DNA of 36,422 bases from assembly GCA_001508855.1 (NCBI GenBank), contig LGFL01000011.1, forward strand, positions 1 to 36,422. The letters are read 5' to 3'. How positions within the stretch are numbered: position 1 is the first letter of the stretch; every line of letters starts with the position of its first letter. Of the stretch, positions 126-23,889 are shown piece by piece. The stretch comes from Thermoanaerobacterales bacterium 50_218. Lineage in GTDB: Bacteria; Bacillota; DSM-12270; Thermacetogeniales; Thermacetogeniaceae. Both the position numbers and the translations under genes were made by a program. The notes under the pieces are model-generated. The model made no database searches, was not told the DNA's origin, and saw nothing but the letters and a program-made list of their open reading frames with translations.

Positions 126-2750
126 ATGCTGAAAGAATCCCACAAGCAGAAGCTCTTGGAAAACTACGGAATAGACCCGCAGAATCCGTCAATCACAGAC
201 ATGATCGACCGCGGCCTCCTGCGTTCGGTCACGCGGGAAGAGGCCGCGGCGCTGTTGGGGTTAGACCTGAACGACCCCGGGCTGGAATCTGGCGGGGTTT
301 ATCTCGAATACCCCGGCACTGACGGAGCAGCCTTCACCATCCGCTTGGACGTGCCCTACCGGAAGGACGGCAAGGAGCGCAAGTACATGCGCCCGGCAGG
401 CCAGGGCAACCGCCTCTTCGTGCCGCCGTGGACAGACCTGGAGAAAACGCAGGAGTTGTGGCTGACCGAGGGCGAGTTTAAAGCCCTGGCGGTGTCCCTC
501 CGGGGGCAGCCCTGCGTGGCTGTGGCTGGAGTGTTTAACTGGCGCACAAATGTTGTGGAGGCCGAACCCCTCGCCGCCGCGCTCGAACTGGAAGGCGAGA
601 AAACCCCCGACCGCCTGGCGATCATACCGGACTTTCAGGAGGAGTGGGTAGGTGGGAAGGCGTTCGTGCTCTGGTACGACTCAGACATCCGGCCCGATCA
701 CCAAGCCTACCCCGCCTTCCAGCGACTGGCCGAGCAGCTCTACCGCCTGGGGGCGGTTTCGGTGAAGATCCTGACGGTGCCGCCGGTGAAAGGTAGCGGC
801 AAGACCGGCTTAGACGATTATTTTCTAGAGCGTGAAAAAGCGGGAAAAAACGCTTTAGCCGAACTTAACGCTCTGGCTGATGAAACCGAAGAATACCTGC
901 CGGTTGGGGACGGGGCCAGGGCCTACGCCGCGGCCGTGGCCGGCGACCGCAACCCGCCGGTGGCGAAGTGCGTCCGCGCCGTCGCCGCCGTGCTGGTGGC
1001 CGAGGGCGAGGCCGCCGCCGAAGAAGTAGCCGAGGAGATCGACCGCCGCCGGGCGCGGGCGCTCTTGAAGGACGCCAAGCGCCTGGTTAAAGCTCTCAAG
1101 GAGAAGGAAAAGCGCGCAGACGAGGCTAGGGCGAGAAAACGGGCAAAAAAGGAGCTGGAGAGGCTTTTGAGCGAGGCGAGGCAGGCCGACGAGCTCGAGA
1201 GGCTGCGCGAGGCCGTGCAGGCGATAAGGACGCAGGAGAAGAAAAAGGCCGCCGAGGTGCAGCGGGAAGTGTTCGAGCTCACGGCGGCGGTGCTGACCTC
1301 CTTGGGTAAGTTTTATGTGGACGACCAAGACCACACGTATTGGTTCTCCACGAAAGAAAAGATACTCTACCGCATGGACTCGCGGGAGTGGAACCGCCTG
1401 CTTACTAGCGCGACCGGACTGACGGACTCCGAGGTCTTAGGCAACGCCGTGCGCAAGCTCCTGGACGCCCACGCAGCCCAAACGGGAGAAAAGGTTGTTA
1501 TAAACCAGATAAGTTACTTCGACCGGGAAAGTTTAAACCTATACCTACACCTCTACAATGGGCGAGTACTGCGTCTGAGCGGCCAGCAGATCGAAGAGAT
1601 CGACAACGGCACCGACGGCGTGCTCTTCCTCGCACGGCGTGAGTGGGTGCCGTGGGACTTCGTGCCGGAAATCCTGACGGACGCGGCGAAGAGAGCCGAA
1701 GCAGCACGATGGTTCGAGCGCTTCTGCTTGAATGGAAACTTCGATCCCACATCACCGCTTTCTCCCCCCGATGCCAAAACTGTTCTGCTCACCTGGTTGC
1801 TGGCGGGGTTCTTCAGGAGCCTCCTCCCCACGCGGCCGATCCTGCTCCTGCGCGGGGAAACGGAAAGTGGCAAGAGCATGCTGGCGAGGCTCATTCTCAG
1901 GCTGGTGTACGGCGGTTTGGCGGACGTGGGCAAACAACATGAAAGGGAAGAAAACGCAATGACTTACCTCACGAATTACCCCTGGACCGTTTTTGATAAT
2001 GTAGATGAACACGTGGACTGGCTGCCGGACTTGCTTGCCATTGTGGGGACGGGAGGGGAACTGCCAAAACGCAAACTTTACACGACCAACGAGCTGGAAA
2101 GGTTCAAGTTCGACACCTGGCTGATTCTAACCGCCAGGACGCCAAGATTTAAGCGCGACGACGTGGCCACGCGCCTGCTCCCCCTGAGGCTGGCTCCCCT
2201 CACCAAGAAGGAGCCCGAATCCCGCCTGCTGGCCGAGGTCGCCGATCCGGAGAACCGCAACCTGGCGCTGAGCTATCTCGTTATCCTTCTGAATCAGATT
2301 GTGGCCGTTTTCCGGCAGTACGGCCTGCCGGACACCGACGAGGACATCCGGCTGGCCGACTACGCTGCATTCCTGCGCGCCTTCCTCCGGGGGAGCGCGG
2401 GAGACCGCCGAGAGGCAGACGCCGCGACCAACAGGATAATAACTGCTATACAGCAACTGCAAGCCGAGTTCCTGGCCGAGAACGACCCTCTGCTCGACAT
2501 ACTCACGGAAGCCATCGAGGACGGCGCGGTGGAAGAAGGAAAGCCGATAAAGACGAACGAACTCTTCGCCGCGCTGGCAGGGTACTGCAGGGCAAAGGAC
2601 TACGAGGTGCCCGTGCGCCACCCGGTCTGGTTGGCGCGCAGGTTAGTGGAGATGCAGGCAGCCGTGAAGGTGCGCGGGCTGCAGGTCTTGATCACCACCG
2701 ACGGAAAGACGAAGACCAGCACTTTCACTTTCGAAAGAATTTCTACCTGA
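126..2750 (+). CDS. DUF3854-type primase-helicase of an integrated element
   Basis: This 874-residue protein combines a Toprim-like DUF3854 primase region with a C-terminal helicase-like ATPase, so it probably primes and unwinds DNA for the element's own replication. Visible motifs are TEGEFKA (residues about 114-120), WYDSD (183-187) and KTGLDDYF (226-233), the usual DUF3854 signature. A charged coiled-coil stretch follows (about 310-390). A Walker A motif GETESGKS lies near 577-584 and a Walker B-like TVFDNVDE near 620. The ATG at 126 follows AGGGGGGAG. The gene is followed directly by the repeat-rich candidate origin, then by a DNA polymerase, which fits a replication module. Fusion of primase and helicase is known in plasmid and phage proteins; the exact helicase family cannot be settled by eye. 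Confidence 0.85.
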   Translation: MLKESHKQKLLENYGIDPQNPSITDMIDRGLLRSVTREEAAALLGLDLNDPGLESGGVYLEYPGTDGAAFTIRLDVPYRKDGKERKYMRPAGQGNRLFVPPWTDLEKTQELWLTEGEFKALAVSLRGQPCVAVAGVFNWRTNVVEAEPLAAALELEGEKTPDRLAIIPDFQEEWVGGKAFVLWYDSDIRPDHQAYPAFQRLAEQLYRLGAVSVKILTVPPVKGSGKTGLDDYFLEREKAGKNALAELNALADETEEYLPVGDGARAYAAAVAGDRNPPVAKCVRAVAAVLVAEGEAAAEEVAEEIDRRRARALLKDAKRLVKALKEKEKRADEARARKRAKKELERLLSEARQADELERLREAVQAIRTQEKKKAAEVQREVFELTAAVLTSLGKFYVDDQDHTYWFSTKEKILYRMDSREWNRLLTSATGLTDSEVLGNAVRKLLDAHAAQTGEKVVINQISYFDRESLNLYLHLYNGRVLRLSGQQIEEIDNGTDGVLFLARREWVPWDFVPEILTDAAKRAEAARWFERFCLNGNFDPTSPLSPPDAKTVLLTWLLAGFFRSLLPTRPILLLRGETESGKSMLARLILRLVYGGLADVGKQHEREENAMTYLTNYPWTVFDNVDEHVDWLPDLLAIVGTGGELPKRKLYTTNELERFKFDTWLILTARTPRFKRDDVATRLLPLRLAPLTKKEPESRLLAEVADPENRNLALSYLVILLNQIVAVFRQYGLPDTDEDIRLADYAAFLRAFLRGSAGDRREADAATNRIITAIQQLQAEFLAENDPLLDILTEAIEDGAVEEGKPIKTNELFAALAGYCRAKDYEVPVRHPVWLARRLVEMQAAVKVRGLQVLITTDGKTKTSTFTFERIST

Positions 2751-2762
2751 CAGCTTTCGGGT

Positions 2763-2797
2763 GTTTCGGGGGTAAACGAAGAGTTTACCCCCGAAAC
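2763..2797. repeat. 15-bp perfect inverted repeat after the primase gene
   Basis: GTTTCGGGGGTAAAC (2763-2777) and its exact complement (2783-2797) flank a 5-nt loop GAAGA. There is no T-run after it, so it is not a standard intrinsic terminator. It contains one plus and one minus copy of the TCGGGGGTA repeat. Confidence 0.85.
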
Positions 2798-2845
2798 TGA
2801 AAACCTAGAAAAATCAAGGCTTCAAGGGTTTAAACTGAGGTATTG

Positions 2846-2954
2846 TCGGGGGTATCGGGGGTATTTTCGTATTGTTTTTTCTACGAAAATCGAAAAAAAT
2901 TTTTTCCTAAAACCTGGTAAAAAAATTTTCAGATTTTACCCCCGATACCCCCGA
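2846..2954. repeat. 18-bp inverted repeat flanking an AT-rich core
   Basis: Two tandem TCGGGGGTA units at 2846-2863 are mirrored exactly by TACCCCCGATACCCCCGA at 2937-2954; the same minus pair recurs at 3070-3087. The enclosed 73 bp are very AT-rich and contain a smaller inverted repeat, ATTTTCGTA/TACGAAAAT. The layout suggests a melting region bounded by protein-binding repeats. Confidence 0.75.
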
Positions 2955-3159
2955 ATTTCCATTTTCCTTCCAATTGTTTTTTCGGGGGTATACACTGCAT
3001 CCATCGCGTGGCGCGCGCGTGCGCGGGGTTTTTTTTCTTTTAATTTTTGTAGGAAAAACAATAGAAATTTACCCCCGATACCCCCGAAACACCTCCGATG
3101 CCCTACCAGTGAGAGCGAAAAAACCCAGACGCACCAAGGGTTTCGGGGATCGGGGGTTG

Positions 3160-3188
3160 TCGGGGGTAAACTTCCTGTTTACCCCCGA
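3160..3188. repeat. 12-bp inverted repeat of the TCGGGGGTA family
   Basis: TCGGGGGTAAAC (3160-3171) and GTTTACCCCCGA (3177-3188) flank the 5-nt loop TTCCT. It closely copies the 2763-2797 hairpin, so two near-identical hairpins bracket the repeat region. Confidence 0.8.
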
Positions 3189-3258
3189 AAAGAGAGAAAG
3201 ATGTCGGGTAGGTTTTAGGGAATATCTGTCATTACTAACAGCAGCTAGGGAAAAAAGT

Positions 3259-3416
3259 TACCCGACAGCTTTTGATTTGATAAAATAGTATTTGCTTCCA
3301 ATAGTTTCAAGAAAAGTTTGGAAAGGTGTCGGGTGCATTTACCTGACATCTTCCGGTTTGATGAAACGGTGTTTATTTCCAAAAACTTCTAAACAAGTTC
3401 GGAAAGGTGTCGGGTA
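3259..3416. repeat. Two imperfect 81-bp-period direct repeats
   Basis: Copy 1 (3259-3335) and copy 2 (3340-3416) each begin with TACCYGACA and end with GGAAAGGTGTCGGGT, so each is itself bounded by inverted TGTCGGGTA motifs. The spacing between equivalent motifs is 81 bp at both ends. A further TGTCGGGTA lies at 3202, and TACCTGACA at 2744 overlaps the primase stop codon. The second copy runs up to the ribosome-binding site of the next gene, so it could also be an operator. Confidence 0.75.
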
Positions 3417-3436
3417 AAAGAAAGGAGGCCTGTCTG

Positions 3437-4048
3437 GTGCTCCCGGACATAGAAAACGAAGCGCGTCTGGAGTGGCATGAAGACCCTTTCAGGTACCCCT
3501 ACCTGCGGGAGACGTGGGTCATGAAGCCCTCGCGGTCCCGTCCCGTGGCACGAGACGCCTTCGGGGCGGGGAAGCGCGTGGTCGGCTACGCCGTACTGCG
3601 GGAGGATACCCCACCCTCCTCAGTCTCGCCCTGGGGCCGGACGTTCTGGCACCGCAGAGTTTGGTGGCTTTACGAAGACGATGCCGGGATGCCGAACGAC
3701 AGAGGGGCCTACGGCCCCGTCACGGGCGTCTATCCCGTGGAGGCCGTGTCCCCCCAATCTATTCGGACTGCCCGTCCTTCCGTTTTTATAAACGAACGTC
3801 CGTCCGTTGCCGACCTTGAGGGCGAAGACCCCCGCCTGCGCTGCTTGTTGGAGTGGTTGGCCCGGAAGGGTGGAAAGGCGTCCCTGCGCGAGGTACGGCG
3901 GGCTAAGGTCCCCGGCCTGGGGAGCACCCGCGAAGTCCTGACCGCGGCGGGCCGGCTGGCCGAGCTGAGCTGGTGCTGGCTGCGGGAGGAGAGGCGGGGG
4001 AGGACGGGGCAGAGGAGCTTCGTGATCGAGTTGATCGATTTGAGGTAA
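3437..4048 (+). CDS. Hypothetical protein, 203 aa, between origin region and polymerase
   Basis: I do not recognise this protein. The N-terminal half is rich in Trp, Tyr and Arg. The C-terminal third (about 140-203) looks like a small helical, winged-helix-type module ending in LIDLR. The GTG at 3437 is preferred because AAAGGAGG ends nine bases before it; an upstream in-frame GTG at 3407 lies inside the 81-bp repeat and has no ribosome-binding site. The stop codon overlaps the ribosome-binding site of the polymerase gene, so the two are probably cotranscribed and translationally coupled. Its place beside the repeats makes a replication-initiation or repressor role possible, without direct evidence. 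Confidence 0.7.
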   Translation: MLPDIENEARLEWHEDPFRYPYLRETWVMKPSRSRPVARDAFGAGKRVVGYAVLREDTPPSSVSPWGRTFWHRRVWWLYEDDAGMPNDRGAYGPVTGVYPVEAVSPQSIRTARPSVFINERPSVADLEGEDPRLRCLLEWLARKGGKASLREVRRAKVPGLGSTREVLTAAGRLAELSWCWLREERRGRTGQRSFVIELIDLR

Positions 4049-4063
4049 AGGAGGTTGATCGGT

Positions 4064-6739
4064 TTGGGGATCGACCTGAGAGACCTCTTGACCCCCCTGG
4101 GGATAGACCCCGCGTGCCGACAATGTAAAGAAGTGGAAGAAGAAATGAAGGAGGAAGATGTTTTAGCCGAGGCCCACCGTCTTGCTTCTGAGTTCGCCGA
4201 ACGGACTGGACTGAGGCGGTTAGGGCAAAAATACACGACCGAGGACTTAGAGGAGTTCGCGGAGGACCCCGATGCCTTCTCCCACTTCCAGGAACTCTTC
4301 TGGGAGGCGATGGGTTTCGTGCTTGACCCCCCGACGCCGGAGAAGCTGGAGGAGTTCCGGCGCCTGCTGGCCGAAGCCGAGGGCGCTTGGCGGGAGGCCC
4401 GGATGAGGCTGCCTAGCGACCCCAAAAAAGAGCCGGCCCCTGAGCTTCCGCCTTCCGATGGGCAGACGGCGGTGGTGCAGGAGACGTTTTTCGGTGGAGT
4501 CAAAGGGAGAGCGGAGGAGGCGGACTTCGAGTCGGCCCCTACTGTTTGGCGTGATTGGCTTGAGAGTGCGGAAGTCGTGGTGGTCAGCAACTTAGAAGAC
4601 TGGCGCCTCGCCGTCGAGGAGGCGCGGGAGGTTGGGGTCTGCGCTCTCGATTTTGAAACAACTGGCCTCGATCCTTTGCAAAACCAGATCCGGCTGGTTC
4701 AGCTCGCCGTGCCGGTCTATCCTCCAGGCGGACGACGCCTCGTGGCCGAGGACGGCAGGACGCCTGTGCCCGCCTCGAGTGCGAGGGTCTACATCGCCGA
4801 CCTCTTCGTCCTCCCTGAGACAGAGAGGGCCGCGGTCTTGGCGGACCTGGCGGACCTGGTGGCCGATCCTGAAACCGTCAAAGTCGGCCACAACCTCAAG
4901 TTTGACCTAGCCTTCTTGCGCGCCGCTCTGGGCCACAGGATCGCCTGCGAGCGGCTATTTGACACTATGCTCGCCAGTCAATTATGTGCTGCGGGCGATT
5001 TCATCCCCGGAGGGCAGTGGGAGGGCTGGGTGAGAGAGCAGGGCTACTCCTTCGCCAAGAACGACCGCGGGCAGGAGCTGAAGACGAAGCTGCTGGACGA
5101 GCACGGTCACGTGCTGGAGTTCGAGCATGACAACCAGAAGGAGATCAAGCCTTTTTACCCAGCCCACTCCCTCCAGCAGGTGGCGCACCGTCACCTGGAG
5201 GTGTGGCTCCCGAAGGATCTGCAGGCGTCCGACTGGGGAGGCGAGCTTCTTTCGGAAGAGCAGATCCGCTACGCCGTGAAGGACGCCGCAGTGTTGTTGC
5301 CCCTTTACGAAATTTTGAAAACGCTGTTGGTCAAGAACAAACTGGCAGGCGCGGCGAAGGTTGAGTTCGACTGCCTGCCCGCGGTGGTGGAAATAGAACT
5401 TTCCGGTATGCCTTTTGATGCGCCGCGGGCGAGGGGGCTTCTCCGAGAGGCCGAGGCGGAAGCCGAAGCGCTCCGGGAGGAGCTGAGGCGGCTCGCCCAG
5501 GCGGCTGGTTTTAAACCCAAGCCTAAGAAGTCCAAAAAGGTACTAGGCTTCAACCCTGACTCCGGGATCGACTGCACCGACCTCCTCTGGCTCCTCGCCG
5601 AGCGGGAAGGTCTGCTGGCCGGGGAGAAGATTGCCGTTGGAGGTGAGGAGTTCGACGTTGAAACGCGCGACAAGACGCTGAGCCGCCTCACCGGACGGCT
5701 CCCTGAGGGGAGCGCCGTCCGGCGGTTCGCCGAGGGGCTGCGGGCTTACCGGGCGGCGAAGAAGCGGGTGGACTTCCTTAAAAAGTGGTTGGAGTTTCTA
5801 CACCCCGCCGACGACCGTCTGCACCCTGAACTCCGGCAGATAAACCCGCAGGGTGTTGGCCGTTTCTCGGCGAAGAACCCGAACCTCCAGCAGGCCCCGC
5901 GCGGTTCGGAGGTACGGGAGCTGTTTCGAGCCCCGGAAGGCAGAAAGCTTATTGTGGCGGACTACTCGGCCATCGAGATGAGGATAATGGCCCAACTCTC
6001 AGGAGACCGTACGCTCCGGCAGGCGTTCGCGGAGGGCGCGGATGTGCACAGGTTCACGGCTTGCCGGGTGTCCAGTAAACCCCTGGAAGAGGTGACGAAG
6101 GAAGAACGCCGGGCGGCCAAGGCGTTTAATTTTGGTCTGATTTACGGCATGACAGCGGAGACATTCCGCCACTACGCCGAAACAAACTACGGGGTGAAGA
6201 TGACCCTCGAAGAGGCCGATGCCGCGAGGGAGGCCTTCTTTAAAACCTACCCCGGCATCGCCGCCTGGCACGCGCGGCAGAAGAGGAAGATTTACGAGGA
6301 TAATTTTGAAGATTTTTGGCGCCACGAATACAGCAGGGGGTTCTATCTTGAAAAACGCCCCTGTACTCGAACCTTAACCAAACGCCTGCGTGTTTGGCCG
6401 ACAGTCGAACGAGAGCGGAGGGGCGGGACTGGCAAATACAGGTGCAAGGCCGGCTCTGTCACGGAAATTTTCAACACCCCCGACCAGGGCACCGGGGCCG
6501 ACATCCTGAAGCTGGCGATGGCGCTCCTCTACCGCAGACTTCTCGAGCGCGGCTGGGAGGACGTGAAGCTGGTGGCGACGGTCCACGACGAGCTGGTTTT
6601 GGAGGCCCCCGAAGGCCTGGCGAGGGAGGCGGCTGTTCTCCTCAAGGAGACGATGGAGGAGGCAGGGCGGAAGCTGCTCCCCGACGTGCCTGTGGAGGTT
6701 GAGGTCGGGGTCGGCGACAGTTGGGCGGAGAAGGCTTAG
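4064..6739 (+). CDS. Family A DNA polymerase with 3'-5' exonuclease domain
   Basis: The 891-residue product is a DNA polymerase I-type enzyme that probably copies the element's own DNA. The proofreading domain shows LDFETTGLD (about residues 194-202) and VGHNLKFDLAFL further on, the Exo I and Exo II motifs. Polymerase motif A is VADYSAIEMRIMAQL (about 630), motif B KAFNFGLIYGM (about 682) and motif C VHDELVLEAP (about 839). The N-terminal 190 residues carry no recognisable 5' nuclease. The TTG at 4064 is chosen because AAAGGAGG ends nine bases before it; the TTG at 4055 touches that site. Chromosomal Pol I normally has a 5' nuclease, so this form is typical of phage and plasmid replicons. Confidence 0.92.
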   Translation: MGIDLRDLLTPLGIDPACRQCKEVEEEMKEEDVLAEAHRLASEFAERTGLRRLGQKYTTEDLEEFAEDPDAFSHFQELFWEAMGFVLDPPTPEKLEEFRRLLAEAEGAWREARMRLPSDPKKEPAPELPPSDGQTAVVQETFFGGVKGRAEEADFESAPTVWRDWLESAEVVVVSNLEDWRLAVEEAREVGVCALDFETTGLDPLQNQIRLVQLAVPVYPPGGRRLVAEDGRTPVPASSARVYIADLFVLPETERAAVLADLADLVADPETVKVGHNLKFDLAFLRAALGHRIACERLFDTMLASQLCAAGDFIPGGQWEGWVREQGYSFAKNDRGQELKTKLLDEHGHVLEFEHDNQKEIKPFYPAHSLQQVAHRHLEVWLPKDLQASDWGGELLSEEQIRYAVKDAAVLLPLYEILKTLLVKNKLAGAAKVEFDCLPAVVEIELSGMPFDAPRARGLLREAEAEAEALREELRRLAQAAGFKPKPKKSKKVLGFNPDSGIDCTDLLWLLAEREGLLAGEKIAVGGEEFDVETRDKTLSRLTGRLPEGSAVRRFAEGLRAYRAAKKRVDFLKKWLEFLHPADDRLHPELRQINPQGVGRFSAKNPNLQQAPRGSEVRELFRAPEGRKLIVADYSAIEMRIMAQLSGDRTLRQAFAEGADVHRFTACRVSSKPLEEVTKEERRAAKAFNFGLIYGMTAETFRHYAETNYGVKMTLEEADAAREAFFKTYPGIAAWHARQKRKIYEDNFEDFWRHEYSRGFYLEKRPCTRTLTKRLRVWPTVERERRGGTGKYRCKAGSVTEIFNTPDQGTGADILKLAMALLYRRLLERGWEDVKLVATVHDELVLEAPEGLAREAAVLLKETMEEAGRKLLPDVPVEVEVGVGDSWAEKA

Positions 6740-8298: not shown

Positions 8299-8391
8299 CT
8301 GACCGTAGCTGTTGACGTTGGCTACGGCTTCACGAAGGCCGTCTCAAGCGCGGGCGTCCGCGTCTCTTTCCCGAGTGTGGGCGCGCCTGCA
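8299..8391 (+). pseudogene. 5' fragment of a ParM-like actin gene
   Basis: Translation gives LTVAVDVGYGFTKAVSS, continuing GVRVSFPSVGAPA. This aligns closely with the N-terminus of the intact ParM at 12412 (NIAVDVGYSSVKAVSE, then GRVMFPSFIAPA), including the phosphate-1 loop DVGY. The similarity stops after about 31 codons, just before a terminator. The reading frame stays open and in frame into the topoisomerase gene. No good start codon is visible (CTG at 8299 has GGAAGG touching it). It is most simply a remnant of a duplicated parM, but a leader peptide made from that remnant is possible. Confidence 0.7.
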
Positions 8392-8459
8392 GCTGCGGAT
8401 CTCCTCAGTGCCTGCGGTGGGGTTCGCTGTTGTGGAGAAATCACTTTTAGCATAGGCTT

Positions 8460-8490
8460 CCGGGCGAAAAGGCGCCCGGCTTTTTTGTTT
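8460..8490 (+). terminator. Intrinsic terminator directly before the Topo VIII gene
   Basis: CCGGGCG (8460-8466) pairs with CGCCCGG (8473-8479), loop AAAAGG, then CTTTTTTG. The ATG of the topoisomerase follows only 18 bases after the T-rich tract, with AGGAGG in between, so the gene's transcript must cross this terminator. Confidence 0.85.
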
Positions 8491-8508
8491 TTGCAGGAGG
8501 TGTCCCAA

Positions 8509-11121
8509 ATGGCATTACCTTTGCAGCGCCTAACCGCCAAAATTTCCCGCTCAAGTGAATATTTCTCGACGCGCGAGCTTCAGACCCAGACTGGCCAACC
8601 GGCATCCCGCTTCGCTGCGGTTGTCCTCAAGGAGCTTGTTGACAACGCTCTCGACGCTGCGGAAGCCGCTGGATCCGCGCCAGAGGTGGAGATTACAGTT
8701 GCCACCGAAGGGGCGAACCTCCGGATCTCAGTCTCCGACAACGGCCCGGGGATCGGCCCGGAGGTCGTGCGGCGGGTGCTGGACTTCTCGGTGCGCGTGA
8801 GCGACAAGCACATTTATCCCAGCCCCACCCGCGGGGCGCAGGGGAACGCCTTGAAGACCGTTGTAGGGATTCCCTTCGCTCTGGGGCTGTCCCTGCCCAT
8901 CGTGATTGAGTCCCGCGGCGTGCGCCACACCATCCGCGCCTGGTCGGACCCCCTCGGCGAAGTGCGAGTGGAGCACAGGGAGGAGCCCTGCGGCAAGGTA
9001 GCAGGGACGCTCATCTCGGTCCCGGTCCCGGCTGAGGGGCAGGAGTTCGGGCCGACCTGGTGGGCGGAGGCGTTTGCAGTCTTTAACCCCCACGCTTTGG
9101 TAAAAATCCGGGTTTTTGAAAAAGCCGGGGTTCCGGATTTAGCTTGCTCAATCGAGCCGCGAGGAAAGGGCGAATTTTTACCGACCGCGGAGTTCCCGAA
9201 CGGATGGCGCAAGTTCCTGCCGACAGACCCGACCTCGGCCTGGTGGTACACCGAAGAGGCCCTCGCCCGGCTCGTCTTCGCCTACCTCAAGGAGGGGAGG
9301 AACCTGACCTTGCGCGACTTCGTGCGCGAGTTCCGGGGGCTTTCCGGCAGCGCGAAGGTAAAGGCGGTCTGCGACCGGCTGCCGGGGATCTCCAGGCTGA
9401 GCGACTTTGAACTTCACCCCGAGCTTGTGTCCACCCTGCTGGCGGTCATGAGGGAGCATTCGCGGCCTGCCAGGCCGGAGCTCCTCGGCTGGTGCGGGGA
9501 GGAGCACTTCAGACGGCGGTTTGAGGAGTTCTACGGGGTCAAGCGCTTCTGGTACAAGCGGATGACCTGCGACGTGGGCGGCGTCCCCTTCGTACTGGAG
9601 GCGGCCCTGGCGGAAACTGAGAGGGAAGGCAGCCTCTTCCTCGGGATCAACTTCAGCCCCACCTTCGAAGACCCGCTGGCGTCGACCTTCCTCCAGGGCC
9701 CCGAGTTCGGCAGCTACGGTGTTGCCGGTTTCCTCTCCCGCGCCCGGTGCCACCCACTTCCCTCGTGGGAGTGGGAGCGCCGGAGCCACGTGGCAGCAGC
9801 GTTCCATCTGGTCAGCCCGACCCTCAACTTCCTCGACCGCGCCAAGACGCGGCTCAAAGTGCCAGCGGAAGTGGCGGAGACAGCGGGCCGGGTGCTCTGG
9901 AGCGTCTGCAAGACCATCTACAAGGAAGAGAAGCGCCGGGAGCGCGACGCGGCCCGGGCCGAAAAGGCCGAAAGGGAAAGGGAAAAGGCGCTGCGTAGGC
10001 TTGAGCGGACGCTGAAGGACGCGGTGTTCCACGTCCTGCCCGAAGCCCTGGAGAAGGCTACCGGCGGCAGTAAGTACCCGGTGAGCGCGAGGACGCTTTT
10101 TTATCAGGTGCGGCCGTTAATTCAGGCATACACGAGCAAAGAGTTGGATTACAACTACTTCAGCCAGCAACTGCTGGTGGAGTACCAGGAACTCTTCGGT
10201 CCGCTGCAACTTCTTTACTACGACCCACGCGGCTACCTTTACGAACCGCACACGGGCCGAACATTGGCTCTGGGGACGCGGGAGGTGGAGTCGTATGACT
10301 TTCCAGAGTGGACGTTCGACAAGATCCTCTATGTCGAGAAAAAGGGCATTTGGCCGGTGCTGCAGGCTGCGAATCTGACCGAGCGCTACGACATGGCCGT
10401 GGTTGCTGCTGAGGGCTACGCCACCCAGGCGGCCAGGGTGCTGTTCCACCGAGCCGAGCGGGACCGCGAGTACCGGCTCTTCGTCCTGCACGATGCTGAC
10501 CCATACGGCTACAACATTGCCCGCACCCTGCGGGAGGAAACGCGGCGGATGAAAGGCTACCGCGTGGACGTGGTGGACATCGGGTTGAAGCTTGAGGAAG
10601 CTGTCGAGATGGGCCTCCAGAGCGAAGAGTACACCCGGCAGCAGGACATCCCGCACGGCGTGAAGGAGAGTCTGACAGAACTCGAACAGGAGTGGTTCGT
10701 GGGATGCCAGGTGGGTAAGAGGGCCTGGATATGCCGGCGGGTTGAATTGAACGCCATGAGTGCGCCGCAGCTGGTGTCCTTCATCGAATCGAAGCTGGCC
10801 GAGCACGGGGCCACGGCCAAAATCCTACCACCGGAGGGAGTGGTAGTCACCCAAGCACGCGAGTTATACTGCACCTTGGCCGGGAGGCTGGCCGAGCAGC
10901 GCATCCTGGAGATGCTGGACGTGCCGGGACTGGTGCGCCGGGTCCTCGAGCAGGTGGGCGCGGCTGACTTCACCGGGCTGCGGGAGAGGTTGGCAAGAAT
11001 GTTGGCGTCGAACCCCCCGGAGTCGTGGCGGGACCTCGTGGAGGCCGAGGTGGAGAAGGCTGCGCTGGAGACTGTAGAGGAGGTGGACTGGAAGAGGGTG
11101 CTGCGCGAGTGCCGGTGGTAG
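8509..11121 (+). CDS. Topo VIII-type topoisomerase (fused TopoVI B and A subunits)
   Basis: This 870-residue protein joins, in one chain, a GHKL ATPase like TopoVI-B and a cleavage half like TopoVI-A/Spo11. The ATPase half shows KELVDNALDAAE (residues 41-52; E42, N46), SDNGPGIG (76-83) and GAQGNALK (109-116). The cleavage half shows RTLFYQVR with the probable catalytic Tyr532, and Toprim motifs YVEKKG (Glu610) and LHDADPYG (Asp662, Asp664). Enzymes of this fused class, named Topo VIII, were described on plasmids and integrated elements. It should relax or decatenate element DNA through a transient double-strand break. ATG 8509 is chosen for its AGGAGG; the open frame extends upstream through the ParM fragment and terminator without a convincing start. 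Confidence 0.92.
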   Translation: MALPLQRLTAKISRSSEYFSTRELQTQTGQPASRFAAVVLKELVDNALDAAEAAGSAPEVEITVATEGANLRISVSDNGPGIGPEVVRRVLDFSVRVSDKHIYPSPTRGAQGNALKTVVGIPFALGLSLPIVIESRGVRHTIRAWSDPLGEVRVEHREEPCGKVAGTLISVPVPAEGQEFGPTWWAEAFAVFNPHALVKIRVFEKAGVPDLACSIEPRGKGEFLPTAEFPNGWRKFLPTDPTSAWWYTEEALARLVFAYLKEGRNLTLRDFVREFRGLSGSAKVKAVCDRLPGISRLSDFELHPELVSTLLAVMREHSRPARPELLGWCGEEHFRRRFEEFYGVKRFWYKRMTCDVGGVPFVLEAALAETEREGSLFLGINFSPTFEDPLASTFLQGPEFGSYGVAGFLSRARCHPLPSWEWERRSHVAAAFHLVSPTLNFLDRAKTRLKVPAEVAETAGRVLWSVCKTIYKEEKRRERDAARAEKAEREREKALRRLERTLKDAVFHVLPEALEKATGGSKYPVSARTLFYQVRPLIQAYTSKELDYNYFSQQLLVEYQELFGPLQLLYYDPRGYLYEPHTGRTLALGTREVESYDFPEWTFDKILYVEKKGIWPVLQAANLTERYDMAVVAAEGYATQAARVLFHRAERDREYRLFVLHDADPYGYNIARTLREETRRMKGYRVDVVDIGLKLEEAVEMGLQSEEYTRQQDIPHGVKESLTELEQEWFVGCQVGKRAWICRRVELNAMSAPQLVSFIESKLAEHGATAKILPPEGVVVTQARELYCTLAGRLAEQRILEMLDVPGLVRRVLEQVGAADFTGLRERLARMLASNPPESWRDLVEAEVEKAALETVEEVDWKRVLRECRW

Positions 11122-11465: not shown

Positions 11466-11735
11466 TTACTTGAGAGAGATTTCGATCTTCGCATCGAGTG
11501 CCTTGGCGACCTTCTTTAGAAAGCGGAGGGAAGGGTTGTAGGATCCGCTTTCCAGGCGGGCGATTGCTGACTGCCGGGTGCCGACTTTCCGTGCCAGTTC
11601 GGCCTGGGTCATTCCCTTGAGCTTTCGCCGTTCGACAATGGCCTTTACAAGCTGATACTCCGGTTCCAGGTTTTCGTATTCCTCCCGGAAAGCAGGGTTT
11701 TTCATCAAATCTTTTTTAAATTCGCTCCATTTCAT
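11466..11735 (-). CDS. higA: HigA-type antitoxin, XRE helix-turn-helix
   Basis: The 89-residue protein carries a Cro/C1-type helix-turn-helix (MTQAELARKVGTRQSAIARL, about residues 41-60). It is the usual antitoxin partner of the HigB-like toxin encoded just upstream on the same strand, binding the toxin and repressing the operon. The toxin-first gene order is typical of higBA. It overlaps the toxin gene by four bases. Confidence 0.85.
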   Translation of the reverse strand: MKWSEFKKDLMKNPAFREEYENLEPEYQLVKAIVERRKLKGMTQAELARKVGTRQSAIARLESGSYNPSLRFLKKVAKALDAKIEISLK

Positions 11736-12091
11736 TTCGTTTCACTCCTTCTTGCTTTGTAGTCTTTCATTCTTTTAATGGCGGTGTGCAGCTCCTTCTG
11801 AGGGATTTTTGCTGATTTTTTGGAGAATCCGTGCACCACAACTATTGTGTTGCCGTGCTTAAAAAACAAGAACCGAAACGCCTGTCCTCCGAAGGGAACG
11901 CGCAATGCCCAGAGACCTTCTTTTCCCGATAAACGCTTCACCCAGGGTCTTCCAATTCCAGGGCCGAATTCTTCTAGGAGATCAAAGGCACGGGCAATCT
12001 TCGCCTGTTCCCGGGGCTTCAGAGAGGCGATAAAATCGGCTACCGGCTGGTTTCCAGAAGCAGTTTCGTACAGCTCGATGGTCCAGGACAT
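11732..12091 (-). CDS. higB: HigB/RelE-superfamily toxin (Gp49-like)
   Basis: The 119-residue protein matches the phage-derived Gp49-like/HigB family of ribosome-dependent mRNA interferases. Characteristic segments are GPGIGRPWVKRLSG, LWALRVPFGGQAFRFLFF and VVVHGFSKKSAKIP. It is followed immediately by the XRE antitoxin. The pair lies opposite to the surrounding replication genes and probably stabilises the element. The ATG is at 12091 on the minus strand. Confidence 0.85.
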   Translation of the reverse strand: MSWTIELYETASGNQPVADFIASLKPREQAKIARAFDLLEEFGPGIGRPWVKRLSGKEGLWALRVPFGGQAFRFLFFKHGNTIVVVHGFSKKSAKIPQKELHTAIKRMKDYKARRSETK

Positions 12092-12411: not shown

Positions 12412-13437
12412 GTGAACATCGCTGTAGATGTGGGCTACAGCTCGGTGAAGGCCGTCAGCGAGCACGGCGGCCGCGTCATGTTCCCATCTTTCATCGCTCC
12501 GGCAACGGAGCTGAGCCTGGGTGAACTTTCACAAACCTCTGTTGGCCACTTCGTCAGGGTCAAGCCGTTTGCGGGTGAGCCTCTGTCCTACTTCGTCGGT
12601 GAGCTTGCCCTCAAAGAGGGGCTGGAAGTGGAGTTCACCATGGAGCGCGAAAAGTATCTCGACCGCACACATGATGTCTTCCTTTTGACTGCCGTGGGTC
12701 TTTTGTTCAGCAACTGCAAAAGGGTAGCGGATAAAATCAACATTGCTGTGGGGCTACCGATCTCCTACTTCGCTAAGCAGAAGGACAGCTTGCAGGCCCA
12801 CATCAGGAACCTTTCGGCTTACATCAGCGTTGACGGTTCAGAGTTCCAGTTGATCGAATTCAATGAGGTACTTGTATATCCCCAGGCGGCAGGCGCGCTG
12901 TTCAAAGCCCTTGAACTGCCGGAATCGGGGCTGGCTGCCCTGATCGACATCGGCTACAAGACAACCGACTACTTAGTTGTGGAGACCAGTCCGAAGGTGC
13001 GTCCAGTGTCGAAGCTGTCGGGCACAATAGAGATCGGCGCCTTCAACCTCTACAGTACGGTAGCAAAAGAGTACGAAAGGCAGACCGGTGGAACCCTCGA
13101 CTGGGGCTACCTGCCGTATGTAGTGAAAGAAGGAAAGGTGCCCTACCGGGGAACGGTGATTGACCTGAGAGACACCATCCGCAGCATAAAAGCGGAGACG
13201 GCGCGGGTCATCGCAAGCAGGGTCCTGGCTGCCTGGAAGGGCACTGCCGACATCATCCAGGTGGTCTACCTCGCCGGTGGCGGGGCTTTAGAGTTTGGTG
13301 ATCTGGTCTCAATGCTCCCTGCGGCGAAGGTGCTCCCCGACCCTCAGTGGGCGAACGCTGAAGGGTTCTTATCCGCGCTCCAGGCGAAGCTGCAGAAGAA
13401 TTCCCTCAAGGCAATCTCCACCAGTGCAGGCACCTGA
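12412..13437 (+). CDS. parM: ParM/StbA-like actin, plasmid segregation ATPase
   Basis: The 341-residue protein has actin-fold signatures: IAVDVGYSSVKAV at the N-terminus (phosphate 1), LIDIGYKTTDYLVV (about 178-191, phosphate 2) and YLAGGGAL (about 287-294, adenosine site). ParM-type actins form filaments that push plasmid copies apart. The GTG start at 12412 follows AAAAGGAGAG. The following gene is a small ParR-like DNA-binding protein and the gap between them carries repeated motifs, giving a complete parM-parC-parR-like layout. A 5' fragment of a second copy lies at 8299. Confidence 0.88.
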   Translation: MNIAVDVGYSSVKAVSEHGGRVMFPSFIAPATELSLGELSQTSVGHFVRVKPFAGEPLSYFVGELALKEGLEVEFTMEREKYLDRTHDVFLLTAVGLLFSNCKRVADKINIAVGLPISYFAKQKDSLQAHIRNLSAYISVDGSEFQLIEFNEVLVYPQAAGALFKALELPESGLAALIDIGYKTTDYLVVETSPKVRPVSKLSGTIEIGAFNLYSTVAKEYERQTGGTLDWGYLPYVVKEGKVPYRGTVIDLRDTIRSIKAETARVIASRVLAAWKGTADIIQVVYLAGGGALEFGDLVSMLPAAKVLPDPQWANAEGFLSALQAKLQKNSLKAISTSAGT

Positions 13438-20418: not shown

Positions 20419-20443
20419 CCCCTCCCTTGTTTATTGGGAGGGG
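20419..20443 (+). promoter_or_regulatory. Hairpin masking the integrase ribosome-binding site
   Basis: CCCCTCCC (20419-20426) pairs perfectly with GGGAGGGG (20436-20443), loop of 9 nt. The 3' arm is the ribosome-binding site of the integrase gene, eight bases before its TTG. Folding would hide the site and lower translation. Confidence 0.65.
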
Positions 20444-20451
20444 ATGGAGAA

Positions 20452-21555
20452 TTGGCGAGGGTGAGAAAGAGGGGTAAGGCGAACTCTTGGGAGATCGAGG
20501 TCTACCTGGGCCGCGACCCTGTGACTGGAAAGAAGCGCTTCTACCGCGAGACCTTCCGCGGCACGAAGACACAGGCGAAGCTGCGCGCCTCCGAGTTAGA
20601 GGTCAACCTCAAGCGCGCACCCGGCGCCGCGAAGGCCCCAGCGACCGTCGGCGAGTGCCTCGACAGGTGGCTCGCCCACGTCCGCGGTTCGGTCGCCGAG
20701 ACCACTTTTGAAAATTACTCGGTCCACGCCCGGCGCCTCAAGCCCTACGTCGGGAGGCTCCCCCTGTGGGGACTCACGCCCGGTGCCCTGCAGGAGGCAT
20801 TGAGCCCGATGTGGGAAAAATTCGTCCCGACCACCTGCCGCAAGACCGTCGGGACCCTCAAGACCTGCCTGCGGCAGGCTGTAGCCTGGGGCTGGGTCTC
20901 CCGCGACCCTACGCAGGGGCTCAAGCTCCCGCGAGTCGCGCGGTCTGAGAAGAGGGTCCTCGCGCCGGGAGAGCTGACCAGGCTCCTGGAGGCACTCAAG
21001 GGCTACAAGCACGGCCTCGCCGTGCGGGTGCTGGCGGTCGCAGGCTTAAGGCTCGGGGAGGTGCTGGCCCTGAGGTGGGAGGACGTTGACTTCGAGAAAG
21101 GCACAGTCACGGTGCGGAGGAGCGCCGACTCGAAGAGGAGGAAGCTGAAGGAAGACACGAAGACACCGGCGGCGCGCAGGACGATCAGACTCGACGCCGA
21201 GACGCTCAGGCTCTTGGAGGAACACAAGAGGAGCCAGAAGGTGCGCCCGCTCAAGGACGCTTTAGTCTTCCCCGCCGAGGACGGGAGACCTCTGAGGTGC
21301 AACGCCGTGAGGAAGACGCTGAGGCTCGCCCTGAAGAAGGCCGGACTGCCGCGGATCCGCGTGCACGACCTCAGGCACACGGCCGCATCGATCCTGATCG
21401 ACGCCGGGGTGTCTCTGACGACAGTCGCCGCCTTCCTCGGGCACTCCAGCCCCGCCACGACCGCGGCCATCTACGCCCACGCCGTGAGGCGCGCCGACAG
21501 CGTCGCCGGGGCCCTGGAGTCGGGCAGCGAGTCGGGCAGGAAGCCGGGAAGCTAG
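20452..21555 (+). CDS. int: Tyrosine recombinase/integrase
   Basis: The 367-residue protein has an N-terminal arm-binding part, a SAM-like core-binding domain and a C-terminal catalytic domain. Catalytic residues are visible: Arg200 (AGLRLGEVLAL), His305 and Arg308 (HDLRHTA), His331 (FLGHSS) and the nucleophile Tyr341 (AIYAHAV). It inserts the element into a tRNA gene and removes it together with Xis. TTG 20452 is preferred, with GGGAGGGG eight bases upstream; that site lies in a hairpin. The tRNA 3' end is 33 bp after the stop. Confidence 0.93.
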   Translation: MARVRKRGKANSWEIEVYLGRDPVTGKKRFYRETFRGTKTQAKLRASELEVNLKRAPGAAKAPATVGECLDRWLAHVRGSVAETTFENYSVHARRLKPYVGRLPLWGLTPGALQEALSPMWEKFVPTTCRKTVGTLKTCLRQAVAWGWVSRDPTQGLKLPRVARSEKRVLAPGELTRLLEALKGYKHGLAVRVLAVAGLRLGEVLALRWEDVDFEKGTVTVRRSADSKRRKLKEDTKTPAARRTIRLDAETLRLLEEHKRSQKVRPLKDALVFPAEDGRPLRCNAVRKTLRLALKKAGLPRIRVHDLRHTAASILIDAGVSLTTVAAFLGHSSPATTAAIYAHAVRRADSVAGALESGSESGRKPGS

Positions 21556-21588
21556 AGCCTGTGCGGGTTTGCAGGTGGGGTCTCTTTG

Positions 21589-21611
21589 TTCAAATCCTTC
21601 CGCGCCCACCA
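21589..21611 (+). other. Displaced tRNA 3' end, attachment-site junction
   Basis: The 23 bases start TTCAAATCC and end CGCGCCCACCA, matching a T-loop, the 3' half of the T-stem, the acceptor strand and CCA. The bases before it (CTTTG) cannot pair with the expected T-stem, so only the 3' part of a tRNA is here. This is the standard result of integration into the 3' end of a tRNA gene: the intact copy should lie at the other end of the element, left of this window. The right boundary of the element is therefore near 21,589. Confidence 0.8.
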
Positions 21612-21624
21612 GTAGGGAACCCTC

Positions 21625-21660
21625 AAACCCGCAAGGCACAAGGCTTTGCGGGTTTTTCGA
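21625..21660 (+). terminator. Terminator of the split tRNA gene
   Basis: AAACCCGCAA (21625-21634) pairs with TTGCGGGTTT (21646-21655), followed by TT. It lies 14 bases after the CCA and is probably the original tRNA terminator. Confidence 0.8.
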
Positions 21661-21928
21661 TTTTAAAATGCACTTCCTCCACCTACATCCTTTTGTTCTG
21701 CAGGAAAAACGGTTAAGTTTGGCGAATACCAAACCTGTCCAGCTTTTTCTGCTCCAAAACCGCAGGGCTGGTGGTCTTCCGTGCGGGTGCTGCTCGCTGT
21801 TATCGGGGTTTTAGAGTCTTGCCCTTCGAGGCATTGCTCCTTTCGATCGGAACGTTGTATACGCTAAAAACCTTGTCTGAAATTCGGCTCAGTGGCTTAC
21901 CAATTATGGTATTATGGGGAAGGTGACT
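21661..21928. other. Gap between the tRNA terminator and the methyltransferase
   Basis: No gene. TTTGG/CCAAA forms a small hairpin near 21718-21732. A possible extended -10 element (TGG-TATTAT, 21907-21915) stands just before the methyltransferase start, without a clear -35. The composition changes to AT-rich from about 21,860. Confidence 0.35.
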
Positions 21929-23227
21929 ATGAACCAAGAAACAAACTATAAAGGTGAAATAATGTTGGAAAAAGCGAAGAGCATAGGTGATTTCTGGGCG
22001 TTTAAAGAAGAACCACTATCAAAGGATAAACAACTGTTACTTTTTGATAATGTTCAATTTATTTATGAGTTGGCATTGGCTCAACTTGAACTGAAATCCT
22101 TGGGTGTAAAATTTGAGTTAACTAATGGATTAAGAGAGTTCAGACTTTTGGAAGAACCCCAAGATGTGGAGTTGTTAAAGAAGAAACTTGCTTACTTTAA
22201 GTTAATTAAAGATAAGTATACAGACTATTTTTATATTGTGAGAAAAAACCGAACAAGGTCTGTGAATCAATATTTAACACATTGGATATACCCGTATAAA
22301 GGAAAATTTCATCCCCAGATGATTAGGGCATTGCTCAATATTATAGGACTCAATAAAGGAGATACGGTATTAGACCCGTTTTTAGGCAGTGGAACCACAG
22401 CAGTTGAAGCCCAATTATTGGGAATAAACTGTGTTGGAATTGATATTTCTCCTTTATGTGTGCTTCAAAGCAAGGTGAAAACAGAATCAATAGAAGTTTT
22501 ACCAGAGATCTTAAAGTGGAAGGATAAAATTTCAGAGAAAGTCGAAGTGAATCTATTTAACCCTGATAACAGGGCTTTGGATAAGGCGATAGAAGACCTA
22601 CCCAATGAAAAAGTTAGAAACTTTTATCTTATGGCAAAATTAGTGGCAGTCAGTGATAATGCAAGAAGGAAGAAAGACTTTACCAATGCATTCAGAAAGA
22701 ATTTAGACTTAATGATTTTGTCAGTTAAAGATTATGTTGATGTGGTAAATAAACTTCAATTAAAAGTTGGGAATGTTGACATAAAAGTTGGTGACTCAAG
22801 AACATTGCCTTTGAAGGATAACAGTGTTGATGGAATAATAACTTCTCCTCCATATTCTATCGCTTTGGATTATGTATCCAATGACGCTCATGCATTAAAG
22901 ACATTGGGTTATGATTTACAGGAGCTACGGGAGGAATTTATAGGAGTTAGAGGTAAGGGACAAAGAAGAATAGACCTTTACAACGAAGACATGAGGAAAA
23001 GTTTACAGGAAATGCATAGGGTTCTCAAGCCTCAAAAGTGTGCGGTAATTGTAATTGGAAATGCCACCTATCAGGGAAAAGAAATAAAAACTGTGGAGTT
23101 TATTATAGATTATGCAGAAAAAATCGGGTTTAGATTGGTGAAAAATATAGATAAAATAATTTTCGGACTTTATAATGTGATGCAGAAAGAAAACATATTG
23201 ATTTTTGAAAAAGAGGGAGAAAAATGA
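21929..23227 (+). CDS. DNA methyltransferase of a restriction-modification pair
   Basis: The 432-residue protein has the AdoMet-binding motif DPFLGSGTT (about 149-157) and the catalytic TSPPY (305-309), the pattern of N6-adenine or N4-cytosine amino-methyltransferases. About 150 residues separate them, a likely target-recognition part. KFHPQMIRALLNIIG precedes motif I, as in many such enzymes. ATG 21929 follows GGGGAAGG; an earlier ATG at 21914 has no ribosome-binding site. The gene is clearly more AT-rich than its surroundings and overlaps the next gene by four bases, so the pair was probably acquired together. Confidence 0.88.
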   Translation: MNQETNYKGEIMLEKAKSIGDFWAFKEEPLSKDKQLLLFDNVQFIYELALAQLELKSLGVKFELTNGLREFRLLEEPQDVELLKKKLAYFKLIKDKYTDYFYIVRKNRTRSVNQYLTHWIYPYKGKFHPQMIRALLNIIGLNKGDTVLDPFLGSGTTAVEAQLLGINCVGIDISPLCVLQSKVKTESIEVLPEILKWKDKISEKVEVNLFNPDNRALDKAIEDLPNEKVRNFYLMAKLVAVSDNARRKKDFTNAFRKNLDLMILSVKDYVDVVNKLQLKVGNVDIKVGDSRTLPLKDNSVDGIITSPPYSIALDYVSNDAHALKTLGYDLQELREEFIGVRGKGQRRIDLYNEDMRKSLQEMHRVLKPQKCAVIVIGNATYQGKEIKTVEFIIDYAEKIGFRLVKNIDKIIFGLYNVMQKENILIFEKEGEK

Positions 23228-23889
23228 GTGAGCATGAAGAATATATAAAACAGCTTGAAGCAGTAATAAGTAAATTTTTAGAGCCTCTCAAAGGCATTCC
23301 ATATCCAGTCGCAATAAAAGCTCTAACCGGTTGCAAAGTATTATCTTTTGATTTATCAATCAAAGAAAATCAGGAATTATTAGAACTTCTAAAAACTGCT
23401 GCACACCTCGCGGGAAGTGAAGCTTATAAGAAAGGAATCTTTACAGGAAGACCTAATGAAGCTGGAAATCATATGGAACCTTTTGTAGTATCAGCTTTAA
23501 GAAAATTAGGGCTCAGAGCAGATAAACCTCGGTCAAGAAGTGGTAAAATCAAAGTGGTTGGTTATCCTGATATTGAAATTATAGATAACAGAGGAAAAAT
23601 TATTTACCTTGACTGCAAGACTTATAACACAGATACAAAAAATCAATCATTTAGAACATTCTATTTTTCGCCATCTAGGGATCCAAAAATCACAAGAGAC
23701 GCTTTTCACTTGCTTTTGAGTTTTGAATTAACAAGGGAAGCAAGAGAGGCTGAAATGGCTTTTGTTCCAATTTCATGGCAACTTTATACGTTAGAAAATC
23801 TACAAGTGCAAGTAAAACACGAATTTAATGCCAGTAACAAAGACCTCTACAAAGAGGAATTTTTATTGGCAAAAGGGAAGTTAAAATGA
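23224..23889 (+). CDS. PD-(D/E)xK restriction endonuclease
   Basis: The 221-residue protein contains GYPDIEII (Asp116 within it) and, 14 residues later, YLDCKTY (Asp130, Lys132), the metal-binding core of PD-(D/E)xK nucleases. Position directly after and overlapping a methyltransferase makes a type II restriction enzyme the best reading. The recognition site cannot be told from sequence. Like its partner it is AT-rich, and the GC-rich chromosome resumes directly after it. Confidence 0.8.
   Translation: MSEHEEYIKQLEAVISKFLEPLKGIPYPVAIKALTGCKVLSFDLSIKENQELLELLKTAAHLAGSEAYKKGIFTGRPNEAGNHMEPFVVSALRKLGLRADKPRSRSGKIKVVGYPDIEIIDNRGKIIYLDCKTYNTDTKNQSFRTFYFSPSRDPKITRDAFHLLLSFELTREAREAEMAFVPISWQLYTLENLQVQVKHEFNASNKDLYKEEFLLAKGKLK

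Follow-up and report, generated by a model that had tools for sequence, protein, structure and literature searches.

The window analysed in this study spans positions 1-36,422 of contig LGFL01000011.1 of Thermoanaerobacterales bacterium 50_218, and it carries part of a plasmid-like element that is integrated in a tRNA-Val gene. At one border, attR (21588-21664, + strand) is a 77-bp, 97% repeat of the tRNA-Val(gac) 3' end and its flank; the tRNA gene lies on contig C90 of this genome, where attL is located at C90:111465-111541. Arm-type repeats, AGTCGGGCA, were found at both element ends (positions 21518 and 21530 of the window; positions 6603, 6614 and 6625 of L099). On the basis of these att and arm-type repeats, the element was delimited as C90:111465 to the end of that contig, a gap, and positions 1-21664 of the window. 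A multi-copy group II intron probably accounts for the gap and the contig break. Its 3' end (domains V-VI) occupies 17-87, directly upstream of the primase-helicase gene, and is also present at the ends of contigs C117, C111 and C31 of the same genome. Genes past 21.7 kb lie outside the element. Just outside attR, a low-GC (34-36%) DNA methyltransferase gene and its partner (21914-23889), unlike their surroundings, probably represent another insertion.

The gene order of the element is DUF3854 primase-helicase, repeat region, DUF6009, family A DNA polymerase, HU-like protein, Topo VIII-like topoisomerase, toxin-antitoxin, ParM, unknown genes and integrase. The polymerase (4055-6739, +; PF00476, E=1.2e-69) has a 3'-5' exonuclease domain (PF01612). 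The topoisomerase (8377-11121, +) is a fused type IIB enzyme with plasmid relatives, in which HATPase and Top6A/Spo11 Toprim domains are joined in one 914-aa chain; this fusion of Top6B-like and Top6A-like parts on a mobile element is that of Topo VIII. Word scans of genomes and viral contigs gave no match to it, which says little because the words were poorly chosen. Elsewhere, G310 holds a decayed Topo VIII relative (L039, around 9575-9982), 66% identical over about 127 aa. An actin-like ParM partition protein (12412-13437, +; ALP_N, MreB-like_C, PHROG 691) and a tyrosine integrase (20434-21555, +; PHROG 1, E=5.4e-72; PF00589) were also identified. Within the element, genes clearly on the minus strand are confined to 11466-12091; they encode an HTH regulator and a Gp49-like protein and are likely a toxin-antitoxin pair.

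The primase-helicase (126-2750, +), our candidate initiator, has 874 aa and comprises a DUF3854 domain (Toprim-related; PF12965, E=4.8e-8; PHROG DNA primases), a P-loop ring-helicase-like domain and a putative C-terminal winged-helix-like domain. Alignment with its relatives revealed shared helicase motifs, namely GETESGKS (P-loop), FDN, TGGxxxxRKLYT and an arginine finger, and placed the end of the conserved C-terminal domain just before the putative origin. The winged helix is predicted from this alignment together with a weak secondary-structure prediction; the full-length structure model had a mean pLDDT of 38, and searches of solved structures returned generic P-loop matches only. No Pfam match to D5_N, DUF5906/Primase_Cterm or DUF927 was obtained at E<=10 for this protein, or at E<=0.01 for 14 aligned relatives. 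Close relatives were found in none of the collections searched, and phages, viral contigs and, by exact peptide words, 84,980 genomes gave no relative at all.

The repeat region at 2751-3436

The intergenic region directly 3' of the helicase gene, a putative replication origin, contains 11 exact copies of the 9-mer TCGGGGGTA, at 2766+, 2786-, 2846+, 2855+, 2937-, 2946-, 2982+, 3070-, 3079-, 3160+ and 3180-; a twelfth copy, at 3150+, deviates at one position. All copies of the array, in both orientations, fall between 2766 and 3188, in the + strand order +- ++ -- + -- (+)+ -, and the first begins 16 bp past the helicase stop codon, which ends at 2750. The number of copies is far above chance. 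Across 2000 dinucleotide shuffles of the region, 9-mers never reached more than 4 copies, and no stretch of the contig outside the cluster surpassed that number either; the 1.77-Mb genome has 17 copies in total, comprising the 11 of the array and 6 scattered singles.

Two tandem iteron pairs with opposed orientation (2846-2863, + and 2937-2954, -) bracket an AT-rich core of 73 bp with 78% AT (2864-2936), the presumed melting site. To the right of these are a single iteron (2982-2990, +), a second AT-rich stretch of 41 bp with 85% AT (3029-3069), and another tandem pair (3070-3087, -), the 18-mer of which is identical to 2937-2954. The outermost copies form two near-perfect hairpins. On the left (2763-2797) the opposed iterons 2766+ and 2786- lie in 15-nt arms that are 100% complementary, while the outer right group (3150-3188) consists of the degenerate 3150+ and the exact 3160+ and 3180- (hairpin 3157-3191). 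The region as a whole forms a large imperfect dyad with two nested inverted repeats, 2846-2899/3034-3087 (54 nt, 83%) and 2743-2794/3160-3211 (52 nt, 79%). Thus the eleven both-orientation 9-mers, the nested inverted repeats and the enclosed AT-rich DNA of about 73 bp described in the first-pass annotation were all recovered. The G5 runs, for which it suggested unusual DNA structures, give a single canonical four-run G-quadruplex motif (3138-3166, +), inside the outer right group, and only this one iteron group fits it.

The same annotation had placed the repeats between a primase-helicase and a DNA polymerase gene; both identifications stand, and a 203-aa DUF6009 ORF (3437-4048) sits between the repeats and the polymerase. 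It had also missed a second, longer repeat family, AAAGNTGTCRGGTA, present in 6 copies of alternating orientation against 0.06 expected. The copy AAAGCTGTCAGGTA (2744-2757, -) overlaps the helicase stop codon and, with AAAGATGTCGGGTA (3197-3210, +), frames the whole iteron region. The other four copies (3259-, 3322+, 3340- and 3403+) alternate within a likewise overlooked 81-bp tandem duplication (3258-3415), located directly upstream of the DUF6009 gene and possibly an operator/promoter region.

No DnaA box (TTATCCACA or TTWTNCACA, up to one mismatch) was detected in 2600-3500, and the region therefore lacks the DnaA boxes beside iterons that mark DnaA-dependent iteron plasmid origins. GC skew, proposed earlier as a check, showed no switch at the site and is uninformative here because the large genes of the element share, with few exceptions, a single direction. 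Rfam searches of the region gave matches to microRNA and similar models far below the cut-offs, attributable to the inverted repeats. Only one viral contig, L013, contained the iteron dimer; there it lies within a coding repeat (DTPDTP), and the contig is unrelated.

Repeat clusters at the 3' ends of related helicase genes

A profile of the helicase part (A2) was prepared from the window protein, two relatives of the same phylum and one Desulfocapsa plasmid protein; of the 399 genomes of the phylum, 36 contained a match, counting that of the window itself. Twenty loci of distant relatives, recovered by sequence as well as profile searches (19 matched genes with enough flanking DNA and the Desulfocapsa plasmid), were then scanned for the 400-bp stretch in which a single 8-mer recurred most often on either strand. 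Fifteen of the 20 relatives showed a peak of 5-13 copies, always in both orientations and within -511 to +398 bp of the helicase gene end, and the remaining five had no such cluster. None of 36 control loci (4432 windows) had such a cluster, the highest count of an 8-mer there being 4. The same scan of phage P4, used as positive control, gave 5 copies at the annotated crr. The 15 positive relatives are partly non-independent, as two pairs share a genus. The textbook case is G244 (L060), in which five tandem copies are followed by a gap and then by opposed copies.

The iteron sequence differs in each of the 15 positive relatives. Of the conservation of the repeats that was to be expected in relatives of an origin, the exact sequence is therefore not retained, whereas layout and position are; the origin-like character first noted for the region is supported by the both-orientation clusters of these relatives and their absence from the control loci. 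The layouts do vary, in that 11 of the 15 arrays lie mostly within the 3' coding tail of the helicase gene, beyond the conserved C-terminal domain. That these iterons occur in both orientations, with spacings other than multiples of three, speaks against a protein repeat alone. The arrays in coding tails, at L055, L056, L058, L059, L061-L066 and L073, correspond to low-complexity protein tails such as DDIGDDFRDDI.

The comparison also bears on two readings in which the repeats serve no initiator. Long nested inverted repeats, one canonical G-quadruplex motif and a second family that frames units in the manner of terminal repeats would suit a structural or mobile inverted-repeat element (a cruciform, G-quadruplex or MITE-like insertion) without an initiator role. 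We regard this as very improbable, as the region is not present elsewhere in the genome, the G-quadruplex fits only one iteron group, and the relatives hold layout and position while changing the sequence, as initiator-iteron pairs do. Alternatively, the repeats could be the centromere-like partition site of the ParM-like actin encoded on the element (12412-13437), partition sites often being iteron arrays. ParM-type sites, however, normally adjoin the parMR operon, whereas this array is 9 kb from the ParM gene and in relatives goes with helicase genes, so that a partition site is hardly to be expected here.

The DUF6009 protein as a possible regulator

The product of the gene downstream of the repeats (3437-4048, +; PF19472, E=1.1e-9) has a predicted C-terminal winged helix, with residues 131-170 modelled at pLDDT 84-91, and Foldseek matches of this domain were mostly winged-helix regulators with E above 0.02. 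None of the 398 further genomes sampled from the phylum yielded DUF6009, and no relatives of the protein were found in phages, plasmids or viral contigs. The iterons could be read as operators for a regulator, perhaps this winged-helix protein, acting on transcription of either the DUF6009-polA-topo operon or the primase-helicase gene, with the origin elsewhere. The region does lie upstream of the DUF6009 gene, the second repeat family is right at the start of that gene, and there is a slight excess of promoter-like sites (3 against 0.6). Yet clusters occur at the helicase 3' end in 15 of 20 relatives although DUF6009 is missing from the other 398 genomes, and 11 copies across 420 bp around an AT-rich core are more than ordinary operators have; we consider operators alone improbable. 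Part of the region, above all the second family, may nevertheless also act as promoter or operator. We suggest that the DUF6009 protein may bind the AAAGNTGTCRGGTA family and control its own operon, which would perhaps tie copy number to polymerase supply. It is the less likely binder of the TCGGGGGTA 9-mers, given that relatives keep iterons in genomes without it. As judged from the sequences compared, the constant partner of the arrays appears to be the helicase rather than DUF6009.

Comparison with known origins and a proposed mode of initiation

In phage P4, crr likewise follows the initiator gene immediately on its 3' side and is built of short iterons that point both ways, ordered ++--+ in each 120-bp repeat (type 1 repeats), and the alpha protein, like the window protein, combines primase and helicase in one chain. 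Alpha binds the type 1 iterons by its C-terminal domain. P4 differs in its iteron, GGTGAACA, in its use of two separate sites, ori1 and crr, and in the helicase families of P4-type primases (D5_N/DUF5906), neither of which is matched by the window protein. The ++--+ order common to crr and copies 3-7 of the present array was considered and is not significant alone.

The origins of PICIs lie immediately 3' of the initiator gene and always comprise an AT-rich region with a set of iterons on each side, and the origin region 3' of rep has been tested in E. coli (PMC6092414); the initiator helicase of PICIs and SaPIs recognises the origin by its C-terminal domain (PMC7581432). The window shares with this pri-rep-ori arrangement two both-orientation iteron sets around AT-rich DNA, immediately 3' of the helicase gene. 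Although the first-pass annotation recognised no origin type for iterons of this kind, the layout is thus already known, P4 crr and the PICI/SaPI origins having it at the same position. There are also differences: PICI/SaPI initiators belong to DUF927 or D5-type Pfam models, neither of which matches the window helicase, and PICIs are phage satellites, whereas no satellite genes (terS, capsid morphogenesis, interference, cos) or other packaging or helper-interference genes were recognised among the scanned proteins of this element, the left end of which is on another contig.

Taken as a whole, we hold it highly probable that the region is the replication origin of the integrated plasmid-like element, working like the crr/ori of P4 and PICIs, chiefly because 15 of 20 helicase relatives have their own cluster at the gene 3' end against 0 of 36 controls. 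Both-orientation iterons above chance, the AT-rich core and a position that directly follows the helicase gene and precedes PolA also count in favour, as do the PICI precedent and the tRNA-Val borders of the element; the five relatives without a cluster, the differing layouts of the others, the lack of a GC-skew switch and a helicase outside the P4/PICI initiator Pfam families count against.

With the region as origin, the 874-aa primase-helicase would bind the TCGGGGGTA iterons, most likely by its C-terminal winged-helix domain; this domain is preferred over DUF6009 as binder because clusters recur at helicase 3' ends in relatives. By analogy, with iterons opposed on the two sides of the core, two helicase rings would load in opposing orientations, melt 2864-2936 and presumably depart in both directions. 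Priming could be carried out by the helicase's own primase domain and extension by the element's family A DNA polymerase. Resolving and partitioning the copies would fall to Topo VIII and ParM.

What sets this case apart is a helicase without a matching Pfam helicase family, an element with its own PolA and Topo VIII, and the framing second repeat family. The P4/PICI origin layout would thereby extend to integrated plasmids that encode their own PolA and Topo VIII and to a helicase family that lacks a Pfam model. We think it somewhat more probable than otherwise that there is a primase-helicase initiator family, not described in Pfam and spread over many genera of the phylum, in which each protein's origin is carried by its own gene, at the 3' end or within that end, with a constant layout and place but an iteron sequence that changes among relatives; in many members the iterons would then double as coding sequence for a low-complexity tail. 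The most useful general result would be that the helicase gene end marks the origin in this family, a rule by which the origins of unannotated mobile elements could be located. The helicase-iteron pairs of the 15 relatives, with all iterons different, also provide a data set for initiator-site co-change.

Free or integrated plasmids that encode Topo VIII have been described (Gadelle et al. 2014, as cited in PMC8185306), and like the window they combine a fused type IIB topoisomerase with a plasmid-like, in part integrated, existence. On one of these, Halalkalicoccus jeotgali plasmid 5, Topo VIII is paired with a P4-type primase, and no comparable both-orientation iteron array was found 3' of that primase. 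Upstream of its Topo VIII gene, this plasmid (L051) has four copies of CATGTCAGG in the order ++-- (10374-10634), possibly an origin or operator. CyRepA, the Rep of cyanobacterial DUF3854 plasmids, resembles the window protein in its N-terminal DUF3854 and C-terminal helicase-like domain; in the available part of the source, CyRepA2 is discussed as a rolling-circle type and a both-orientation iteron origin is not described (PMC10079941). In Streptomyces plasmid pS1D4-14.2 (L050, 9713-14053), DUF3854, a D5-type helicase and DNA polymerase A are fused in one protein, a set that the window divides among separate genes.
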